A stretch of DNA of 64,000 bases from Bacteroidota bacterium (GTDB lineage Bacteria > Bacteroidota > Rhodothermia > Rhodothermales > UBA10348): positions 1 through 64,000 of the forward strand of contig JADFHF010000001.1 of the NCBI GenBank assembly GCA_022567305.1. The letters run 5' to 3'. The notes under the pieces were generated by a model, which saw only the letters and a program-made list of their open reading frames with translations, was not told the origin of the DNA and did not search any database. A program made the position numbers and the translations under genes. Positions 2,283-9,740 of the stretch are shown here, one piece after another. Each line of letters starts with the position of its first letter. Position 1 is the first letter of the stretch.

Positions 2283-2870
2283 TCAGCATCCGCCCCAACT
2301 GATCACGCAGCGATCCTCAACCTCGAACGAGTTCGAATACCGTCCGGTCTCAGGTACCGGAGTTGAATAATGTTGAGCTTGATAATCCCAGTGAAGAAAC
2401 GCCGATACCTTTATACGAAATGTCCCCGAAATATCTTGCCGTCCCCACGATTGATCTGGGTACTCTGCCCCCCACGTACCCACTGAAAAATGAATGGGTT
2501 TACTTTCGCCGGGCTCGACAACAATGGATTCATGTTTAATCAGAGGACATCCGAACCCAAGTCCCTCCCGATGTACCCACTGCCCATCTACCAGCTGTTC
2601 AAAATCTTCCAGAACCGTGCCACAACCGAAGACGTAGATCCGTGCCTTCGACTTGTTTATGTAAGTCGCGTCTACGCTGATGAGGACACTCTTTGGATCT
2701 CTTCGTCTACCGACATAGTTAGTCGAGTCGGTTACGATTTGTAGATCCTCAGCCCTCACGCGAATATCGGTATTTCCCAAAATCTCGCAGCTTGAGATAA
2801 ATAAAACTCCCAAACCCAGTATAAATAGAGGCCGATACACGATTGCGGTACAGAAACCGTTAATGATCAA
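2283..2870 (-). CDS. Putative lipoprotein of unknown function
   Basis: A 195-residue secreted protein. The N-terminus has a hydrophobic stretch (LFILGLGVLFISSC) ending in the lipobox I-S-S-C, so it is probably an envelope lipoprotein. The rest is beta-rich, with an immunoglobulin-like pattern (VEPGESKPIHFSVGTW) and four or more Cys. This resembles small periplasmic domains that modulate other proteins, but I cannot name a family. The frame opens with TTG at 2870. A GTG at 2840 gives a tighter signal peptide and is an equally good start. It lies directly upstream of the methyltransferase gene. Confidence 0.6.
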   Translation of the reverse strand: MIINGFCTAIVYRPLFILGLGVLFISSCEILGNTDIRVRAEDLQIVTDSTNYVGRRRDPKSVLISVDATYINKSKARIYVFGCGTVLEDFEQLVDGQWVHREGLGFGCPLIKHESIVVEPGESKPIHFSVGTWGAEYPDQSWGRQDISGTFRIKVSAFLHWDYQAQHYSTPVPETGRYSNSFEVEDRCVISWGGC

Positions 2871-2944
2871 ACCATAATCACCATCAATAAAAGTAATGTC
2901 AAGGCCAGAATCATTGATGGTGTAGGATCTACGTAGTTGATTCG

Positions 2945-3040
2945 GTGCACCCCTTTTTCACTCACCTCAGTCATCGCTAGTTGCTACTCTATCTGATTAG
3001 ACGCACCCTATCGCCATAAATGGCATTGAGAGGCTGACTT
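2945..3040 (+). repeat. Leader repeat, copy 1 (96 bp)
   Basis: First of three matching leaders, each placed before a member of the T9SS secreted family. It has an 18-nt 5' block (GTGCACCCCTTTTTCACT), a 33-nt variable spacer, and a conserved 3' block of about 45 nt containing CGCACCCTATCGCC and ending GAGAGGCTGACTT. Copies 2 and 3 start at 5264 and 8826. The variable middle has identical length in all three copies, which points to fixed geometry such as a promoter or protein-binding site. Confidence 0.8.
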
Positions 3041-3058
3041 CACGACCTGAAATTGGCC
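3032..3058 (+). promoter_or_regulatory. Start-codon hairpin, copy 1
   Basis: The 5' arm GGCTGACTT (3032-3040) can pair with AAATTGGCC (3050-3058), giving eight of nine pairs including two G-U, with a 9-nt loop. The ATG of the downstream gene follows immediately at 3059. There is no usable Shine-Dalgarno between hairpin and start. Confidence 0.55.
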
Positions 3059-5263
3059 ATGATCACCATTCGAGATCCCGCATATCACGTCCGAATTGCC
3101 GTTCTCGCGGTTAGCCTGACGCTCTTTTGTACTACGTCCAGTGCCCAGATATTGGAGACTAATCGTTTAGCCCTTGAGGCTCTATACCATGCCACCGACG
3201 GTGACAACTGGATCAACAACACGGGCTGGTTGACGAGCGATATCAGAACGTGGCACGGCGTCGTTTACGATATTCTTAGTAGAATAGTTGTCGCCATCGA
3301 TTTGTCAGGAAACAATCTGACTGGGAAGATCCCCTTGGAGTTAGGTCAGATCTTTAATCTGAAGACTCTTGATCTCAGCAACAACAAATTGACCGGCGAG
3401 ATTCCCTTCACCTTAGGAAATCTTCAGTGGTTAGAAAAGCTGAATCTCCAAAACAATCTTGATCTTACAGGTACTCTACCCATTTCCTTGACGAATCTTA
3501 GACGTCTAGAGAATTTCTGGTTCGACGGTACAAATCTTTGTGAATCAAAGTACGGCCCTTTCCAATCTTGGATTAGCTCGGTAGTCGACGTTCGTCGGAC
3601 CGGATGTACGGCGCTCTTTGATGAATCGCTCGTCGGCACCTGCGACCGCCCGCTCGGAGAACAATTTCTGGACGTGAATAACGTCCGAGCCCGGATCGTG
3701 AATACCGGAGGCCTGTTCTATCGAGGTAACCCGCATGTGTACGAGGTGCCGATCCATTCGGGGTCGAACGCTATTTTTGCGGGTGCACTCTGGATTGCCG
3801 GTATCATAGATGGCGACCTACGAGCTTCTGCCGCTCGATACGGAAACAACGAATTGTGGGCGGGGCCTCTAGACGAACTTGGACACCCACCTGAAGACTG
3901 CAAAGTCTACGACCGGATTTACAAAGTCAGTTCTTCGGATATCCACACGTATGAAGCAACAGGGATCGCGTCGGACGACTTGCGGGAATGGCCCACAGGA
4001 CTAGGCGCTCCAACCGTGGATGCCGAAGGAAATGAAATCGATCTGATGGACCTGCCTCTCTCTGCGCGACGAGATAGAGTGATCAACTTAGCGGCGGGTG
4101 AGCGGCCGCGGGTGCTCGGCAATCAGTCCATCTGGTGGGTCATGAATGATCGGGGGAATGAACACGAATCAACCGACACGTTACCGATGGGAATTGAGGT
4201 GCACGGACATGCGTTCGCAGCGGCGGGGGGTGAAATAGCCAATAACACTACGCTCTACAATTTCCGGATCTTCAATCGCAACGTCCTTCCACTCACGGAG
4301 GCATACGTCGGAGTCTTTCTTGATACTGATCTGGGTGATTTTGACGACGACTATGTCGGGTCGGACAGCACGCTGGGAATGGGATTAACGTACAACGCTG
4401 ACGATTTTGATGGTGGCGGAGAAGGGTATGGTTCTCCTCCACCTGCACTGGGCATGTTATTCATCGAGGGACCGGTTGCAGATGATGATCTGGTCGATAA
4501 TGATCGCGATGGAGTGGTGGACGAGCCCGGAGAGCGACTACGAACCACGGCGGTCGGTACGTATTACGGTGGCGGTGGAGTATCCGGGGATCCGACTACA
4601 GGAACTCACTACTACACCTACATGCAAGGCCAGTGGAAGGATGGAAAACCGTATACGTATGGCGGAAATGGACGTGATTTCTCAAATATTCCAACTCATT
4701 GGTTCTTTTCGGGTGACCCTGTTACCAGCGAGTTTTGGTCAGAAATGAATGTGGACGGTCTGGGTACACGCATCGAACCGGGTGACCGGCGCTGGTTTAT
4801 TTCATCTGGGCCTTTCTCTCTCGGAGCGGGTGAAGACACAGATTTCACGTTCGCTATCGTCTGGGCACTGGGAAAAGACCGTCTTGATTCAGTATCTAGG
4901 CTCCGGAAGGTAGCAGACCGTGTTCGGAGCGCCTTTGAGATAGGCGCTTGGAACGAGCCTATACTAATTCGCGAAGATCCACTCCCTATAGAACCAAATC
5001 TAAGTGCCGCGCTCGCAGACAACTTTCCGGAGCCATTTTCCGAGAGTACGACGATTAGGTATCGCGTCCCTCATTTCGCCTTCGTGCAATTAGTAGTACT
5101 CGATGTGCTCGGAAGAGACGTAACAGTATTGGTCCGTGAGCCTAAGGATGCCGGCGAATACTCCGTCACGTTCGTCGGCACCGATCTGCCATCAGGCGTG
5201 TACTTCTATAGAATTGAAATGGACCACGCGTCGGCGACTCGGTCCATGATGTTGGTGAAGTGA
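3059..5263 (+). CDS. Secreted LRR-containing protein with T9SS sorting domain
   Basis: A 734-residue secreted protein. The signal peptide covers residues 1-29 (cleavage after SSA). A plant-type leucine-rich-repeat block follows (LSGNNLTGKIP, LSNNKLTGEIP; about residues 35-180). From Cys195 (TCDRPLGEQFLD) comes a body of about 460 residues shared with the next two family members. The body carries an EF-hand-like acidic motif, DNDRDGVVDEPGER, near residue 480. It ends in a type A T9SS C-terminal sorting domain (about 655-734; VLDVLGRDV, LPSGVYFYRIE, SMMLVK). Export through T9SS to the surface or medium is inferred. The body is an uncharacterised family. ATG at 3059 is preferred over the in-frame TTG at 3053, because the leader hairpin ends exactly there. 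Confidence 0.85.
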   Translation: MITIRDPAYHVRIAVLAVSLTLFCTTSSAQILETNRLALEALYHATDGDNWINNTGWLTSDIRTWHGVVYDILSRIVVAIDLSGNNLTGKIPLELGQIFNLKTLDLSNNKLTGEIPFTLGNLQWLEKLNLQNNLDLTGTLPISLTNLRRLENFWFDGTNLCESKYGPFQSWISSVVDVRRTGCTALFDESLVGTCDRPLGEQFLDVNNVRARIVNTGGLFYRGNPHVYEVPIHSGSNAIFAGALWIAGIIDGDLRASAARYGNNELWAGPLDELGHPPEDCKVYDRIYKVSSSDIHTYEATGIASDDLREWPTGLGAPTVDAEGNEIDLMDLPLSARRDRVINLAAGERPRVLGNQSIWWVMNDRGNEHESTDTLPMGIEVHGHAFAAAGGEIANNTTLYNFRIFNRNVLPLTEAYVGVFLDTDLGDFDDDYVGSDSTLGMGLTYNADDFDGGGEGYGSPPPALGMLFIEGPVADDDLVDNDRDGVVDEPGERLRTTAVGTYYGGGGVSGDPTTGTHYYTYMQGQWKDGKPYTYGGNGRDFSNIPTHWFFSGDPVTSEFWSEMNVDGLGTRIEPGDRRWFISSGPFSLGAGEDTDFTFAIVWALGKDRLDSVSRLRKVADRVRSAFEIGAWNEPILIREDPLPIEPNLSAALADNFPEPFSESTTIRYRVPHFAFVQLVVLDVLGRDVTVLVREPKDAGEYSVTFVGTDLPSGVYFYRIEMDHASATRSMMLVK

Positions 5264-5359
5264 GTGCACCCCTTTTTCACTACCGCGTGACCTCGCTAAC
5301 CACTACACTTACTCATTAGACGCACCCTATCGCCTTAATTGGCACTGAGAGGCTGACTT
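5264..5359 (+). repeat. Leader repeat, copy 2 (96 bp)
   Basis: Second leader copy, beginning on the base after the stop codon of the upstream gene. The 5' block is identical to copy 1, the spacer is 33 nt of different sequence, and the 3' block is nearly identical to copy 1. Confidence 0.8.
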
Positions 5360-5374
5360 ATTCGGAGGTCAGTT
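5351..5374 (+). promoter_or_regulatory. Start-codon hairpin, copy 2
   Basis: The 5' arm GGCTGACTT (5351-5359) pairs with AGGTCAGTT (5366-5374) at all nine positions, three of them G-U, around a 6-nt loop. GTG at 5375 follows immediately. A Shine-Dalgarno-like GGAGG (5364-5368) lies partly in the loop and partly in the 3' arm, so folding would sequester it. Confidence 0.6.
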
Positions 5375-7103
5375 GTGATACGTTTGAATACTCATCTATT
5401 CGCTCGATTCGTCGCGCTGTTAGGCCTTTGCCTCTGGCTGATACCCGGCACAATAAAAGCCCAGAAGATTGGCGATTGTGACCGTCCGCAAGGTGAAGCG
5501 TATCTGGAGGGCAAACAATGTTCGCGCTCGGATTCCTAACACAGGCGGACTGTTCTATCGTGGACAGCCTAGTGTTTACGAAGTACCCCGTTTCTCTGGA
5601 ACCAATGCAATCTTCGCAGGCAGTATCTGGATTGGTGGTCTTGTTGACGGATCGCTCAGAGTAGCGGCGGCTCGGTACACCCAGACTGAAATGTGGGCCG
5701 GGCCGATAGACGACAGTGGGAATCCGCCGGAGAACTGCAACGAATACGATCATGTCTACAGCGTGCGCAGGATAGACATTGGGGATTATGAAGCCAGCGG
5801 ACTAATTACCGAAGACCTTCGCTTGTGGCCAACTGGGCTCGGAGCACCGACATTAGATGCAAATGGGAACCAAATCGATTTAATGAGCCAACTATTATCG
5901 AACCGCGTGTCCCGGAGAATCAACCTCGCAGCCGGTGAGCGGCCTGCAATCCGAGGCGATCAGTCCATCTGGTGGGTGATGAACGATCGTGGGAACGAAC
6001 ACAAGTCTACTGATACGCCGCCTTTGGGAATAGAGGTGCATGGTCATGCGTTTGCGGCATATTACCCAACGAGCGCAATCAACAATGCAACACTTTATCA
6101 CTATCGGATCTTTAACAAGAACGCTGTTCCGATCACTGAGGCGTATGTAGGCGTATTCTTAAACGTCGATCTCGGCGATTTCGACGATGATTATATTGGT
6201 GCAGACACTAGCCGGGGGATGGGGTTCGTTTACAACGGCGATAACTTCGATGACAATCAGTGGGGTTACGGAACCGCTCCGCCGGCTCTAGGAAGCATGT
6301 TTCTGCAGGGGCCAGTGGCAGATAGCGATCTTAAGGACAACGATGGCGACGGGCTGGTCGACGAGCAAGGTGAACGTCTTCGCACAACGACTATCGGATA
6401 CTGGCAGGGCGGAGGCGGCTACGACACCGGTCCGACTAGCGGTGAGCAATACTACCAATATCTCATGGGCGAGTGGAGGGATGGGCGGCATTTCACGTTT
6501 GGTGGTGATGCAAGAAATTTCTCCAGTACGCCAACCAACTTCGTCTTCCCCGGTGATCCCGTCACGAGGGAGTTCTGGTCTGAAATGAACGTGGATGGTC
6601 TTGGAACGCCCAATGAACCCGGAGACCGAATTTTCTTTATTTCATCCGGTCCATTCTCTATCGATCCGGGTGAGAATACTGATTTTACGTTCGCCATCGT
6701 CTGGGCCCGTGGACGTGACCATCTAGATTCGGTAATTGAACTACGAAAGGCAGCCGACCATGTTCGGAGCGCCTTTGAGTTAGGCGCTTGGGACAATCCT
6801 ATCCTAATTCCCGAAGATCCAGTCCCTGCAGCACCAAATCTAAGTGCCGCACTAGCTGACAATTTCCCCGAACCTTTCTCTGAGAAAACGACGATCCGGT
6901 ATCGCGTCCCTCACTTGGCCGATGTGCATTTAGTTGTACTCGATGTGCTCGGACGGGAAGTCACGGTATTGGTGAGTGAGCCACAGGGCGTTGGTGATTA
7001 CTCAATCTCGTTCAACGGCACGGATCTACCATCAGGCGTGTACTTCTACCGAATCGAAATCGGCCATGCTTCAGCCACTCGATCCATGATGCTGGTGAAG
7101 TGA
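5375..7103 (+). pseudogene. Frameshifted secreted T9SS protein, family member 2
   Basis: Paralogue of 3059-5263 without the LRR cassette. GTG at 5375 opens a signal peptide (FVALLGLCLWLIPGTIKAQ) and the conserved CDRPQGEAYLEG, but this frame stops at a TAA about 50 codons in. The body resumes one base out of phase (NNVRARIPNTGGLFYRG) and stays open to the sorting domain (VLDVLGREV, LPSGVYFYRIE, SMMLVK) and stop at 7103. Comparison with member 1 places the extra base near 5507-5514, where LDV-NNV should be contiguous. A frame called from TTG at 5469 would lack any signal peptide. It is either a true pseudogene, a programmed or phase-variable frameshift, or a one-base assembly error. Confidence 0.75.
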
Positions 7104-7145
7104 CGTCGATCGGTAACCATTATATCAGAATTGCATGAACCATAA

Positions 7146-8747
7146 ATGCAGTTAATGACAACCATATCACTATTGGTCATTGTTACCAAACTCACGTCGC
7201 AAGTTTATGCGCAGGTACCGTGTGAGTACGGATCGGTCGCGCTGACGATAGATTCGGGTAATGCAGAAGCTGCAGTTGAAAATGATGGTCACCTTTTCTG
7301 GGCGCATGGAACATCACTTCCACATTTCGAAGTCCCAAAAGGCAGCGGAATTAACGTCATTTTCCGAGCAAAGCCGTGGATTGGCGGCCTGATCAACGGC
7401 GAAATTCACTTCACGGGCCCACAATCAGGCCAGCTCTATTACCCGGGACCGCTGGATCAGAATGGTTACGGATTGCCTAACTGCAGCGACTATGATCGTA
7501 TTTGGAAGGTTTCGCGCTCTGATCTCCGTGAAATCGTGGAGTCGGGTAAACTCTCAGACGATATTAAGCACTGGCCTTCGGGTCTCGGAGCACCGACGGT
7601 CGACGGAAATGGTATCGTGGACGACTATGATCCGACCTCCGGCGATCTGCCAGCTATTGTCGGTCAAGAATCCGCATGGTGGATCATGAATGACGGCGGG
7701 CGGGAAAACGTCGAGAATCTCTGGTTTCCTCAAGTCGGTCTGGAAGCACGAGTATTCGTGGCGGCAATGCCTTCACGCCCAAACGTTGAAGTCTATTACT
7801 TCCGGTACACGTTTACCTATGCAAATTCGAATCCGCTGGAGGACGCATATATAGGGTTCTTTATGGATCCTGATCTAGGAGATTTCGACACCGACAAATT
7901 TGGATCTGCTTCTTGGATCAGCACGGTTTACGTCTATAAGAAGGATAATTTCGACGCTAAGTATGGTGCGAATCCTCCGGCACTCGCGATCACACTCTTG
8001 CAGGGACCGCTTGTAGACGCTGACGGCCTCGATAACAACAGAAACGGGATTATCGATGAGCCGAACGAGCGCCTCGATTTGACTGCGTTCGTTGCTGGTA
8101 ACGAAATCCATAAAAATCGACCAACCTTCTTCTATAATCATCTTCAAGGCCTGTGTGGTCGTTCGGGAAACCCAATTCGCGTTGGATCCGGATGTATCTC
8201 GGCGACCGGACAGCCCACGACGTATTGGTATTCAGGTGACCCGGTAACAGGTCTCGGGTGGTTGGATGATGGAACTTATGACAGAGCCTTCCTGATTTCA
8301 TCGGGGCCTTTCGACTGGCTACCGGGGGAAGAGCAGACCATCGCGTTTGCCATTATCTGGGCTCGTGGAAATGATAATCTGGAGTCGATCTCTCGTGTGC
8401 GAGATATAGCTGGCTATCTTCAAAATACGCCTGAATTTTTCGCCCCGGATGTCTCGATCGGACGACCGGCAGCGCTAGTTGCGAGCTTTGTTGGTTTTGA
8501 GCCCGCCTACCCAAATCCCGCCGACACGCAGGCATTTATCACATACACGGTTACTGACCCAACCGAAGTCACGCTCTCATTATTCAATATTACCGGAAGA
8601 CAAATCGCGACTGTTCACGACTCATTCCAGAGTCCCGGTAAGTACACCGAAATCTTTGACGTTTCCTCACTCCCGACTGGTGTCTACTTCTATCGCCTCT
8701 CCATTGGCCGTCTGTCGGCGACAAGACCGTTGACGGTGATACACTGA
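7146..8747 (+). CDS. Secreted T9SS protein, divergent family relative
   Basis: A 533-residue secreted protein with signal peptide (ISLLVIVTKLTSQVYAQ). The body is related to the two upstream members: it shares the layout FEVPKGSG-N-IF, WIGG, YPGPLD, SGLGAPTVDGNG, WWIMND, YIGFFMDPDLGDFD and the acidic DNNRNGIIDEPNERL motif. It ends in a T9SS sorting domain (about residues 455-533; LFNITGRQI, LPTGVYFYRLS, RPLTVIH). Neither the N-terminal CDRPLGEQ segment nor the leader repeat is present, so it is an older or differently regulated branch. Function unknown; surface or secreted location inferred. A second Met four codons downstream is an alternative start. Confidence 0.8.
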   Translation: MQLMTTISLLVIVTKLTSQVYAQVPCEYGSVALTIDSGNAEAAVENDGHLFWAHGTSLPHFEVPKGSGINVIFRAKPWIGGLINGEIHFTGPQSGQLYYPGPLDQNGYGLPNCSDYDRIWKVSRSDLREIVESGKLSDDIKHWPSGLGAPTVDGNGIVDDYDPTSGDLPAIVGQESAWWIMNDGGRENVENLWFPQVGLEARVFVAAMPSRPNVEVYYFRYTFTYANSNPLEDAYIGFFMDPDLGDFDTDKFGSASWISTVYVYKKDNFDAKYGANPPALAITLLQGPLVDADGLDNNRNGIIDEPNERLDLTAFVAGNEIHKNRPTFFYNHLQGLCGRSGNPIRVGSGCISATGQPTTYWYSGDPVTGLGWLDDGTYDRAFLISSGPFDWLPGEEQTIAFAIIWARGNDNLESISRVRDIAGYLQNTPEFFAPDVSIGRPAALVASFVGFEPAYPNPADTQAFITYTVTDPTEVTLSLFNITGRQIATVHDSFQSPGKYTEIFDVSSLPTGVYFYRLSIGRLSATRPLTVIH

Positions 8748-8825
8748 TGCCGATTGTATCCGCCCCGAATGGGATGCGATTCTTAGTTCTACAATTCCCA
8801 TTGGACGTTGTAAATACTTCTTAGA

Positions 8826-8920
8826 GTGCACCCTTTTTCACTCGACGGGATCGCATGATCTTGTTACTATTACCGTTTGGACACACCCTATCGCCATAAT
8901 TGACGCTGAGAGGCTGATTT
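8826..8920 (+). repeat. Leader repeat, copy 3 (95 bp)
   Basis: Third leader copy, one C shorter in the CCCC run of the 5' block. The 33-nt spacer length is preserved with unrelated sequence. The 3' block carries a few substitutions (ACACACCCTATCGCC, GAGAGGCTGATTT). Confidence 0.8.
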
Positions 8921-8935
8921 AGCCAGAAATCAGCT
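8912..8935 (+). promoter_or_regulatory. Start-codon hairpin, copy 3
   Basis: The 5' arm GGCTGATTT (8912-8920) pairs with AAATCAGCT (8927-8935) at all nine positions, one G-U, around a 6-nt loop. ATG at 8936 follows immediately. The C-to-T change in the 5' arm relative to copy 2 is matched by G-to-A in the 3' arm. No Shine-Dalgarno is visible. Confidence 0.65.
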
Positions 8936-9091
8936 ATGACAAGGTCTTCTTGCCGAATCTTGATTCTGAGCACTCTACTCTTGTCGCTGACGCTTTCGCT
9001 TCTACCGGGCGTCGTCGTCACGCAAGAATTTGGCACCTGCGATCGTTCACTCGCAGAACAGTATCTGGACCTCCGATTCTCGTCTAGGTAA
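8936..9091 (+). pseudogene. Truncated family member 3: signal peptide plus stub
   Basis: A 51-codon frame directly behind leader copy 3. It encodes a good signal peptide (LLLSLTLSLLPGVVVTQ) and the start of the conserved body (GTCDRSLAEQYLD). It then diverges into LRFSSR and stops with TAA at 9089-9091. The homologous 450-residue body and the sorting domain are absent. It is most simply the 5' remnant of a third tandem copy that lost its remainder by deletion. Because leader, hairpin, start and signal peptide are intact, it could still be expressed as a short secreted peptide. Confidence 0.7.
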
Positions 9092-9223
9092 TACCCACTC
9101 ATGCGTGTGACGCTTAATTCCCAACGCGTGTAAACTAATGACGTGATTTGCGTGTCTGATGATTATGCAATCGAGATCACCCCTGGCATCTCGATATCTT
9201 TGCGAGACGACCTTCAGTGAGTC

Positions 9224-9301
9224 ATGTTCAAGAATTACCTCCGCGTCGCACTGCGAAGTATGCTGCGTCAGCGCATTTACGCATCGATCAATATTGTCGG
9301 A
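9224..9301 (+). pseudogene. N-terminal splinter of an FtsX/MacB-type ABC permease
   Basis: ATG at 9224 opens MFKNYLRVALRSMLRQRIY followed by ASINIVG, which is the standard N-terminus of FtsX-like (MacB family) permeases, common in this phylum. The similarity stops after about 26 codons at 9297-9302. From there the sequence continues as a gamma-glutamyltransferase C-terminus in a different frame. The transmembrane and periplasmic domains are missing, so this is not functional. Confidence 0.6.
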
Positions 9302-9740
9302 AGATCAGAATCCTTACAATGTGGTCGAGCCCGGAAAAAGACCGAGAGCAACGTTAACGCCGGGACTGGCACTCAAGGAAGGAAAACCGTTCCTCTCGTT
9401 TGCTGTTCAGGGTGGCGATTCACAGGATCAAAACCTGCTCCAGTTTTTCTTGAACGTGGTTGAGTTCGGAATGAACGTTCAGGAAGCTGCAGAAGCGCCC
9501 AATATCAATACATTTCAATTACACGGCTCGTTTGGAAGTCATCGGAATTCACCGGGTCGTATTCGTCTAAACGATTCGATTCCCTCGTGGACGCGCACCG
9601 AATTAAAAAAGATGGGATATCGACCTGAATATTCAGCAAGAACGTCTGGACCCATTACGGCTATATTCTTCGACTGGGAGCATCATTCGTTTTGGGGCGG
9701 AGCTAGCCATCATGGAGAGGATTACGGGATAGCGTGGTAG
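9297..9740 (+). pseudogene. C-terminal fragment of gamma-glutamyltransferase
   Basis: About 147 codons matching the end of the small subunit of gamma-glutamyltranspeptidase-family enzymes: NPYNVVEPGKRPRATLTPGL, VQGGDSQDQNLLQFFLNVVE, FGMNVQEAAEAPN, then a Gly-rich tail GGASHHGEDYGIAW. The autoprocessing Thr nucleophile and the whole large subunit are absent. The fragment starts at the junction with the permease splinter and ends at a normal stop, so it is a 5'-truncated remnant left by a deletion or insertion event. Confidence 0.7.

Follow-up and report, generated by a model that had tools for sequence, protein, structure and literature searches.

Hairpins that occlude the start codon or the ribosome site are familiar from RNA thermometers, ribosomal-protein leaders and translational riboswitches. 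Here we analyzed a window of 64,000 nucleotides (the whole stretch of DNA under study, positions 1 to 64,000 of contig JADFHF010000001.1 from a Bacteroidota bacterium of the order Rhodothermales) that holds three copies of a leader ending in a start-codon hairpin; all copies of this leader head one paralogous family of T9SS-type secreted proteins (T9SS type A sorting domain). Like the known occluding hairpins, the leader has a local stem beside the start codon, which in three copies takes in part of a GGAGG, but the leader has no Rfam match or known ligand and leaves the start codon open. In Flavobacterium johnsoniae, ribosome profiling showed that structure near the start codon tunes initiation (PMC6847099); structured initiation regions are a genome-wide statistical trend there, whereas the hairpin described here is discrete and conserved within a single gene family. 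The bS21-dependent control of Shine-Dalgarno (SD)-bearing mRNAs in Bacteroidia, such as rpsU (PMC9976891), offers a second comparison: leader copies 2, 4 and 5 carry a GGAGG at a workable distance from the start codon in a genome poor in SDs but, unlike that system, the leader genes are not ribosomal protein genes, and the SD is short and is absent from copies 1, 3 and 6. It is plausible that the leader is a new, lineage-restricted case of the known start-proximal 5'UTR hairpins. The proposal of an earlier sequence-only reading, that an RNA structure controls translation of surface proteins, is likewise plausible and in part supported, by consensus pairing and by the T9SS-type secreted genes downstream; control itself is what we infer, from a single genome.

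The three copies in the window comprise the following features, with bit scores from R1, a covariance model of the leader.

2945-2962, + strand: upstream box of copy 1, GTGCACCCCTTTTTCACT
2985-2992, + strand: -10-like motif of copy 1, TACTCTAT, putative promoter element
2999-3058, + strand: conserved leader of copy 1, predicted whole 5'UTR, 71.9 bits
3013-3024, + strand: upstream stem-loop of copy 1, GCCA/TGGC
3032-3058, + strand: start-codon hairpin of copy 1, 8 of 9 pairs, 9-nt loop; 5' arm GGCTGACTT at 3032-3040, 3' arm AAATTGGCC at 3050-3058, then ATG 3059
3059-5263, + strand: copy 1 gene, intact, with signal peptide, LRR, family domain and T9SS sorting domain
5264-5281, + strand: upstream box of copy 2, immediately 3' of the copy 1 stop codon
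5304-5311, + strand: -10-like motif of copy 2, TACACTTA, putative promoter element
5318-5374, + strand: conserved leader of copy 2, 83.0 bits
5332-5343, + strand: upstream stem-loop of copy 2, GCC/GGC
5351-5374, + strand: start-codon hairpin of copy 2, 9 of 9 pairs closing a 6-nt loop, part of GGAGG within the stem; 5' arm GGCTGACTT at 5351-5359, 3' arm AGGTCAGTT at 5366-5374, then GTG 5375
5375-7103, + strand: copy 2 gene, starting with GTG and frameshifted by one base after ~46 codons
8826-8842, + strand: upstream box of copy 3, one C shorter
8865-8872, + strand: -10-like motif of copy 3, TACTATTA, putative promoter element
8879-8935, + strand: conserved leader of copy 3, 79.9 bits
8912-8935, + strand: start-codon hairpin of copy 3, 9 of 9 pairs, identical to the hairpin of copy 6 (contig C107); 5' arm GGCTGATTT at 8912-8920, 3' arm AAATCAGCT at 8927-8935, then ATG 8936
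8936-9091, + strand: copy 3 gene fragment, 51 codons

The sequence-only reading had placed the end of the hairpin exactly at the start codon in all three leaders, and a base-by-base check confirmed this: the hairpin forms the final 24-27 bases of the 60-base leader and directly abuts the start codon, with zero gap at ATG 3059, GTG 5375 and ATG 8936. Its pairing counts of 8, 9 and 9 of nine in copies 1, 2 and 3 were reproduced as well (a C.A mismatch and two G.U pairs in copy 1, three G.U pairs in copy 2 and one in copy 3), as was the partial sequestration of GGAGG in the copy 2 stem. A random stem with nine of nine pairs at a given window position (loop 3-12) has a chance of ~0.16%, and one with at least eight pairs ~2.4%, the three hairpins being copies of one leader and not independent. 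The compensatory exchange of C-G for U-A is present but, with no difference between the hairpins of copies 3 and 6, it counts as a single evolutionary event. Copy 1 has an additional in-frame TTG at 3053, within the 3' arm.

Only copy 1 of the three leader genes in the window is intact, and its LRR is an insert. The copy 2 reading frame from GTG ends after 54 codons at TAA 5537; the frame is lost at an AAA run (window 5375-5540), reflecting either a real frameshift or an assembly error. The copy 3 leader and gene fragment (8880-9070) are 91% identical to the C107 copy over 191 bp. Beyond the window, CACCCTATCGCC and the later part of the leader recur at C63:475-534, C63:3601-3660 and C107:152357-152416; the copy 4 gene is cut by the contig end, and those of copies 5 and 6 are intact. 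R1 scored the six full copies, in and beyond the window, at 72-85 bits. The next match, C4:8214-8276 with 18.4 bits, is a degraded leader standing ahead of a pseudogene of this protein family; it retains CTGAGAGGCTG and most stem pairs.

The leader was found in one genome only, and the downstream protein family is common in the order. Searches with R1 found no leader in the 394 phylum genomes sampled besides its own (E up to 0.001) or in 113 other genomes of the order, exact-pattern scans of GTDB contigs and viral contigs gave none, and no matching leader was seen upstream of homologues in relatives. Three weak R1 matches in genomes of the order (L039-L041) proved to be unrelated sequence. Against Rfam, the whole window gave only a tRNA, and the copy 1 leader had no match at E up to 5. 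Family members without the leader also occur in the same genome, namely two on contig C93, one on C79 and the paralogue at window 7146. The last of these (7146-8747), a distant T9SS-family paralogue, lies 42 nt after the copy 2 gene and is perhaps co-transcribed with it.

The hairpin at the start codon is probably real. RNAalifold gave a consensus of two stem-loops, at alignment columns 15-18/23-26 and, for the start-codon stem, 34-42/52-60, and column shuffles matched the observed consensus energy in only 0.2% of cases for the full leader and 0.05% for the hairpin alone. Consensus partners were paired in 94-96% of cells, compared to 18-52% for slid partners. Extending the covariation analysis to six or seven copies, as the earlier reading had suggested, revealed one pair per stem changed on both sides, 40-54 (C-G, U-A) and 18-23 (A-U, U-A), although these are few independent events in one genome; pair shuffles reached the observed value in 20 of 500 trials with six copies and 11 of 500 with seven, in a control that ignores relatedness. 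Six of eight changes in the 3' arm keep pairing, mostly where G.U pairing tolerates them (chance of 2, 9 and 19% at transition fractions of 0.5, 0.67 and 0.8). At pair 40-54, copy 1 keeps the C.A mismatch and copies 3 and 6 have U-A; copies 1 and 6 are sisters in the protein tree and both have A at column 54, a pattern that would read as loss of pairing followed by repair. Folding energies of the 30 nt upstream of the start are -8 to -11.4 kcal/mol for the six copies, compared with 0 to -6 kcal/mol for most other window genes. Copies 2 and 5 show 88% identity in the leader, against ~64% of bases shared by their genes. The structural evidence is nevertheless fair rather than strong, because single leaders gave weak z-scores (-0.3 to -1.4) while isolated hairpins gave -1.8 to -4.4 in the six copies (mononucleotide shuffles). 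Copy 3 and the C4 pseudogene copy have a different minimum-energy fold. All pairs of an extended upstream stem (CCTATC/GAGAGG) are invariant across copies and so speak neither for nor against it. A K-turn in the upstream stem was rejected on inspection: the positions opposite GA are Watson-Crick.

The predicted stem of 8-9 pairs ending at -1 covers the initiation region, and we compared this region between the six copies and 27 leaderless homologues. Bases -15 to -1 were less often unpaired in leader copies (mean 0.42 versus 0.56, p 0.002) and the start codon was more often unpaired (0.73 versus 0.43, p 0.004); the starts of homologues in relatives were less occluded than those of leader genes. 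On these predictions, the hairpin probably limits translation initiation. The earlier reading had also pointed to a missing SD in copies 1 and 3. This is correct, but it means little as a sign of control, because only 2 of the 33 window genes carry an SD (background 9.3%, that is, no enrichment). GGAGG is found only in copies 2, 4 and 5, where it lies partly in the stem and may serve it. For a trans-acting small RNA, the seed TCAGCCTCTCA was found only opposite the six leaders in the genome; a shorter or imperfect seed is possible. The leader also falls short of a riboswitch, being tied to one gene family in one genome, with no competing fold shared among its copies.

Conservation extends upstream of the leader. 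With up to three mismatches, the copy 1 box has just six sites genome-wide, four of them at leader loci; in copy 5 the box is only degenerate. Spacing between box and leader is constant in the copies having the box, and the T-A of a TAC..TTA-like motif is fixed in place in all six copies, amid mostly diverged sequence. Leaders are 73-90% identical to one another, and their flanks have mostly diverged. The Bacteroidetes -7 element is TANNTTTG (PMC6847099). If the motif is such a -10/-7 element, transcription would begin close to where the conserved block does, and these 60 bases are probably the entire 5'UTR.

We favor, with moderate confidence, a family-specific 5' regulatory module whose start-codon hairpin restrains initiation. 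Such a module would combine three elements: the 18-bp upstream box, the -10-like motif at its constant spacing, and a 5'UTR of 60 nt that folds into two stem-loops. The downstream stem-loop would end one base before the start codon (at -1), leaving the 15 nt upstream largely paired and the start codon exposed. This hairpin would most likely lower or gate initiation of the secreted proteins, either by its own stability or because some factor recognizes the leader's invariant 5' half; this invariance suggests a second constraint on the same bases, for example a protein or the promoter. The transcription start, formation of the hairpin in the cell and repression are what we infer. If the hairpin works in this way, one shared 5'UTR would restrain translation across the family, a compact case of a Bacteroidota-type bacterium that hardly uses SD sequences holding back a whole family of secreted proteins; the mosaic copies described below show a route by which control of this kind can spread as genes duplicate.

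Shared descent with recombination is a possible but doubtful substitute for this module: duplicated genes would exchange segments, joining promoter to gene through the homology of the leader, and the hairpin would be a by-product or do no more than minor tuning. Over -97 to -60, copy 6 shows 91% identity to copy 2 and 35% to copy 3; from -27 to +135 (hairpin and signal peptide) its identity to copy 3 is 86-100%, and its gene body has 81% identity to copy 1. By these comparisons it is a mosaic of a copy 2-like promoter, a copy 3-like hairpin and signal peptide and a copy 1-like body; the junction lies within the leader, so recombination contributes to leader uniformity. Nearby IS-like debris and the decay or truncation of some copies (C4, copy 3) fit the same account. 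Against it, 5'UTRs are alike even between copies with strongly diverged genes, the conserved block starts at the predicted transcript start and the consensus pairs better than shuffled columns do. Part of the conservation is explained by descent and by recombination between copies, and the structural-control and recombination readings are not mutually exclusive. A reading in which the leader doubles as a start-codon RNA switch and a crossover junction, at which promoters and signal-peptide-bearing surface-protein genes are reshuffled without any recombinant losing the shared post-transcriptional control, is distinctly unlikely.

Control at the DNA level, with the conserved blocks and inverted repeats as regulator binding sites around the transcription start instead of RNA structures, is unlikely. 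GCACCC is common to box and leader, ~54 bp apart at constant spacing where the box is present, and the box itself is AGTG-N11-CACT-like; yet the 3' arm drifts while still pairing, in part by G.U pairs, with which a DNA palindrome would be broken, and the end of the hairpin is locked to the start codon. We consider it very unlikely that the hairpin serves only to limit read-through translation in tandem arrays or to protect the 5' end, without specific regulation. The boxes of copies 2 and 4 directly abut the stop codon of the paralogue before them, and a C93 paralogue overlapping its neighbor by ATGA lacks the leader, as insulation would have it, but no paralogue stop codon directly precedes copies 1, 3 and 6, and the base-level invariance of the leader's 5' half exceeds the needs of a plain insulator.

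Several further observations concern the surroundings of these copies. The 138 bp upstream of copy 1 (window 2860-2997) recur at the contig end C14:42107-42244 with 97.8% identity; the repeat stops just before the leader, and the sequence after it is one that we take to resemble an IS end. On C107, ~2.7 kb from copy 6, a gene for a large serine recombinase (L043:1820-3898; Resolvase, Recombinase and zinc ribbon domains) is adjoined by integrase-like fragments. The area 3' of copy 3 looks decayed, with a short permease-like stretch followed by a gamma-glutamyltranspeptidase gene fragment at window 9159-9740 (profile positions 377-502 of 512).
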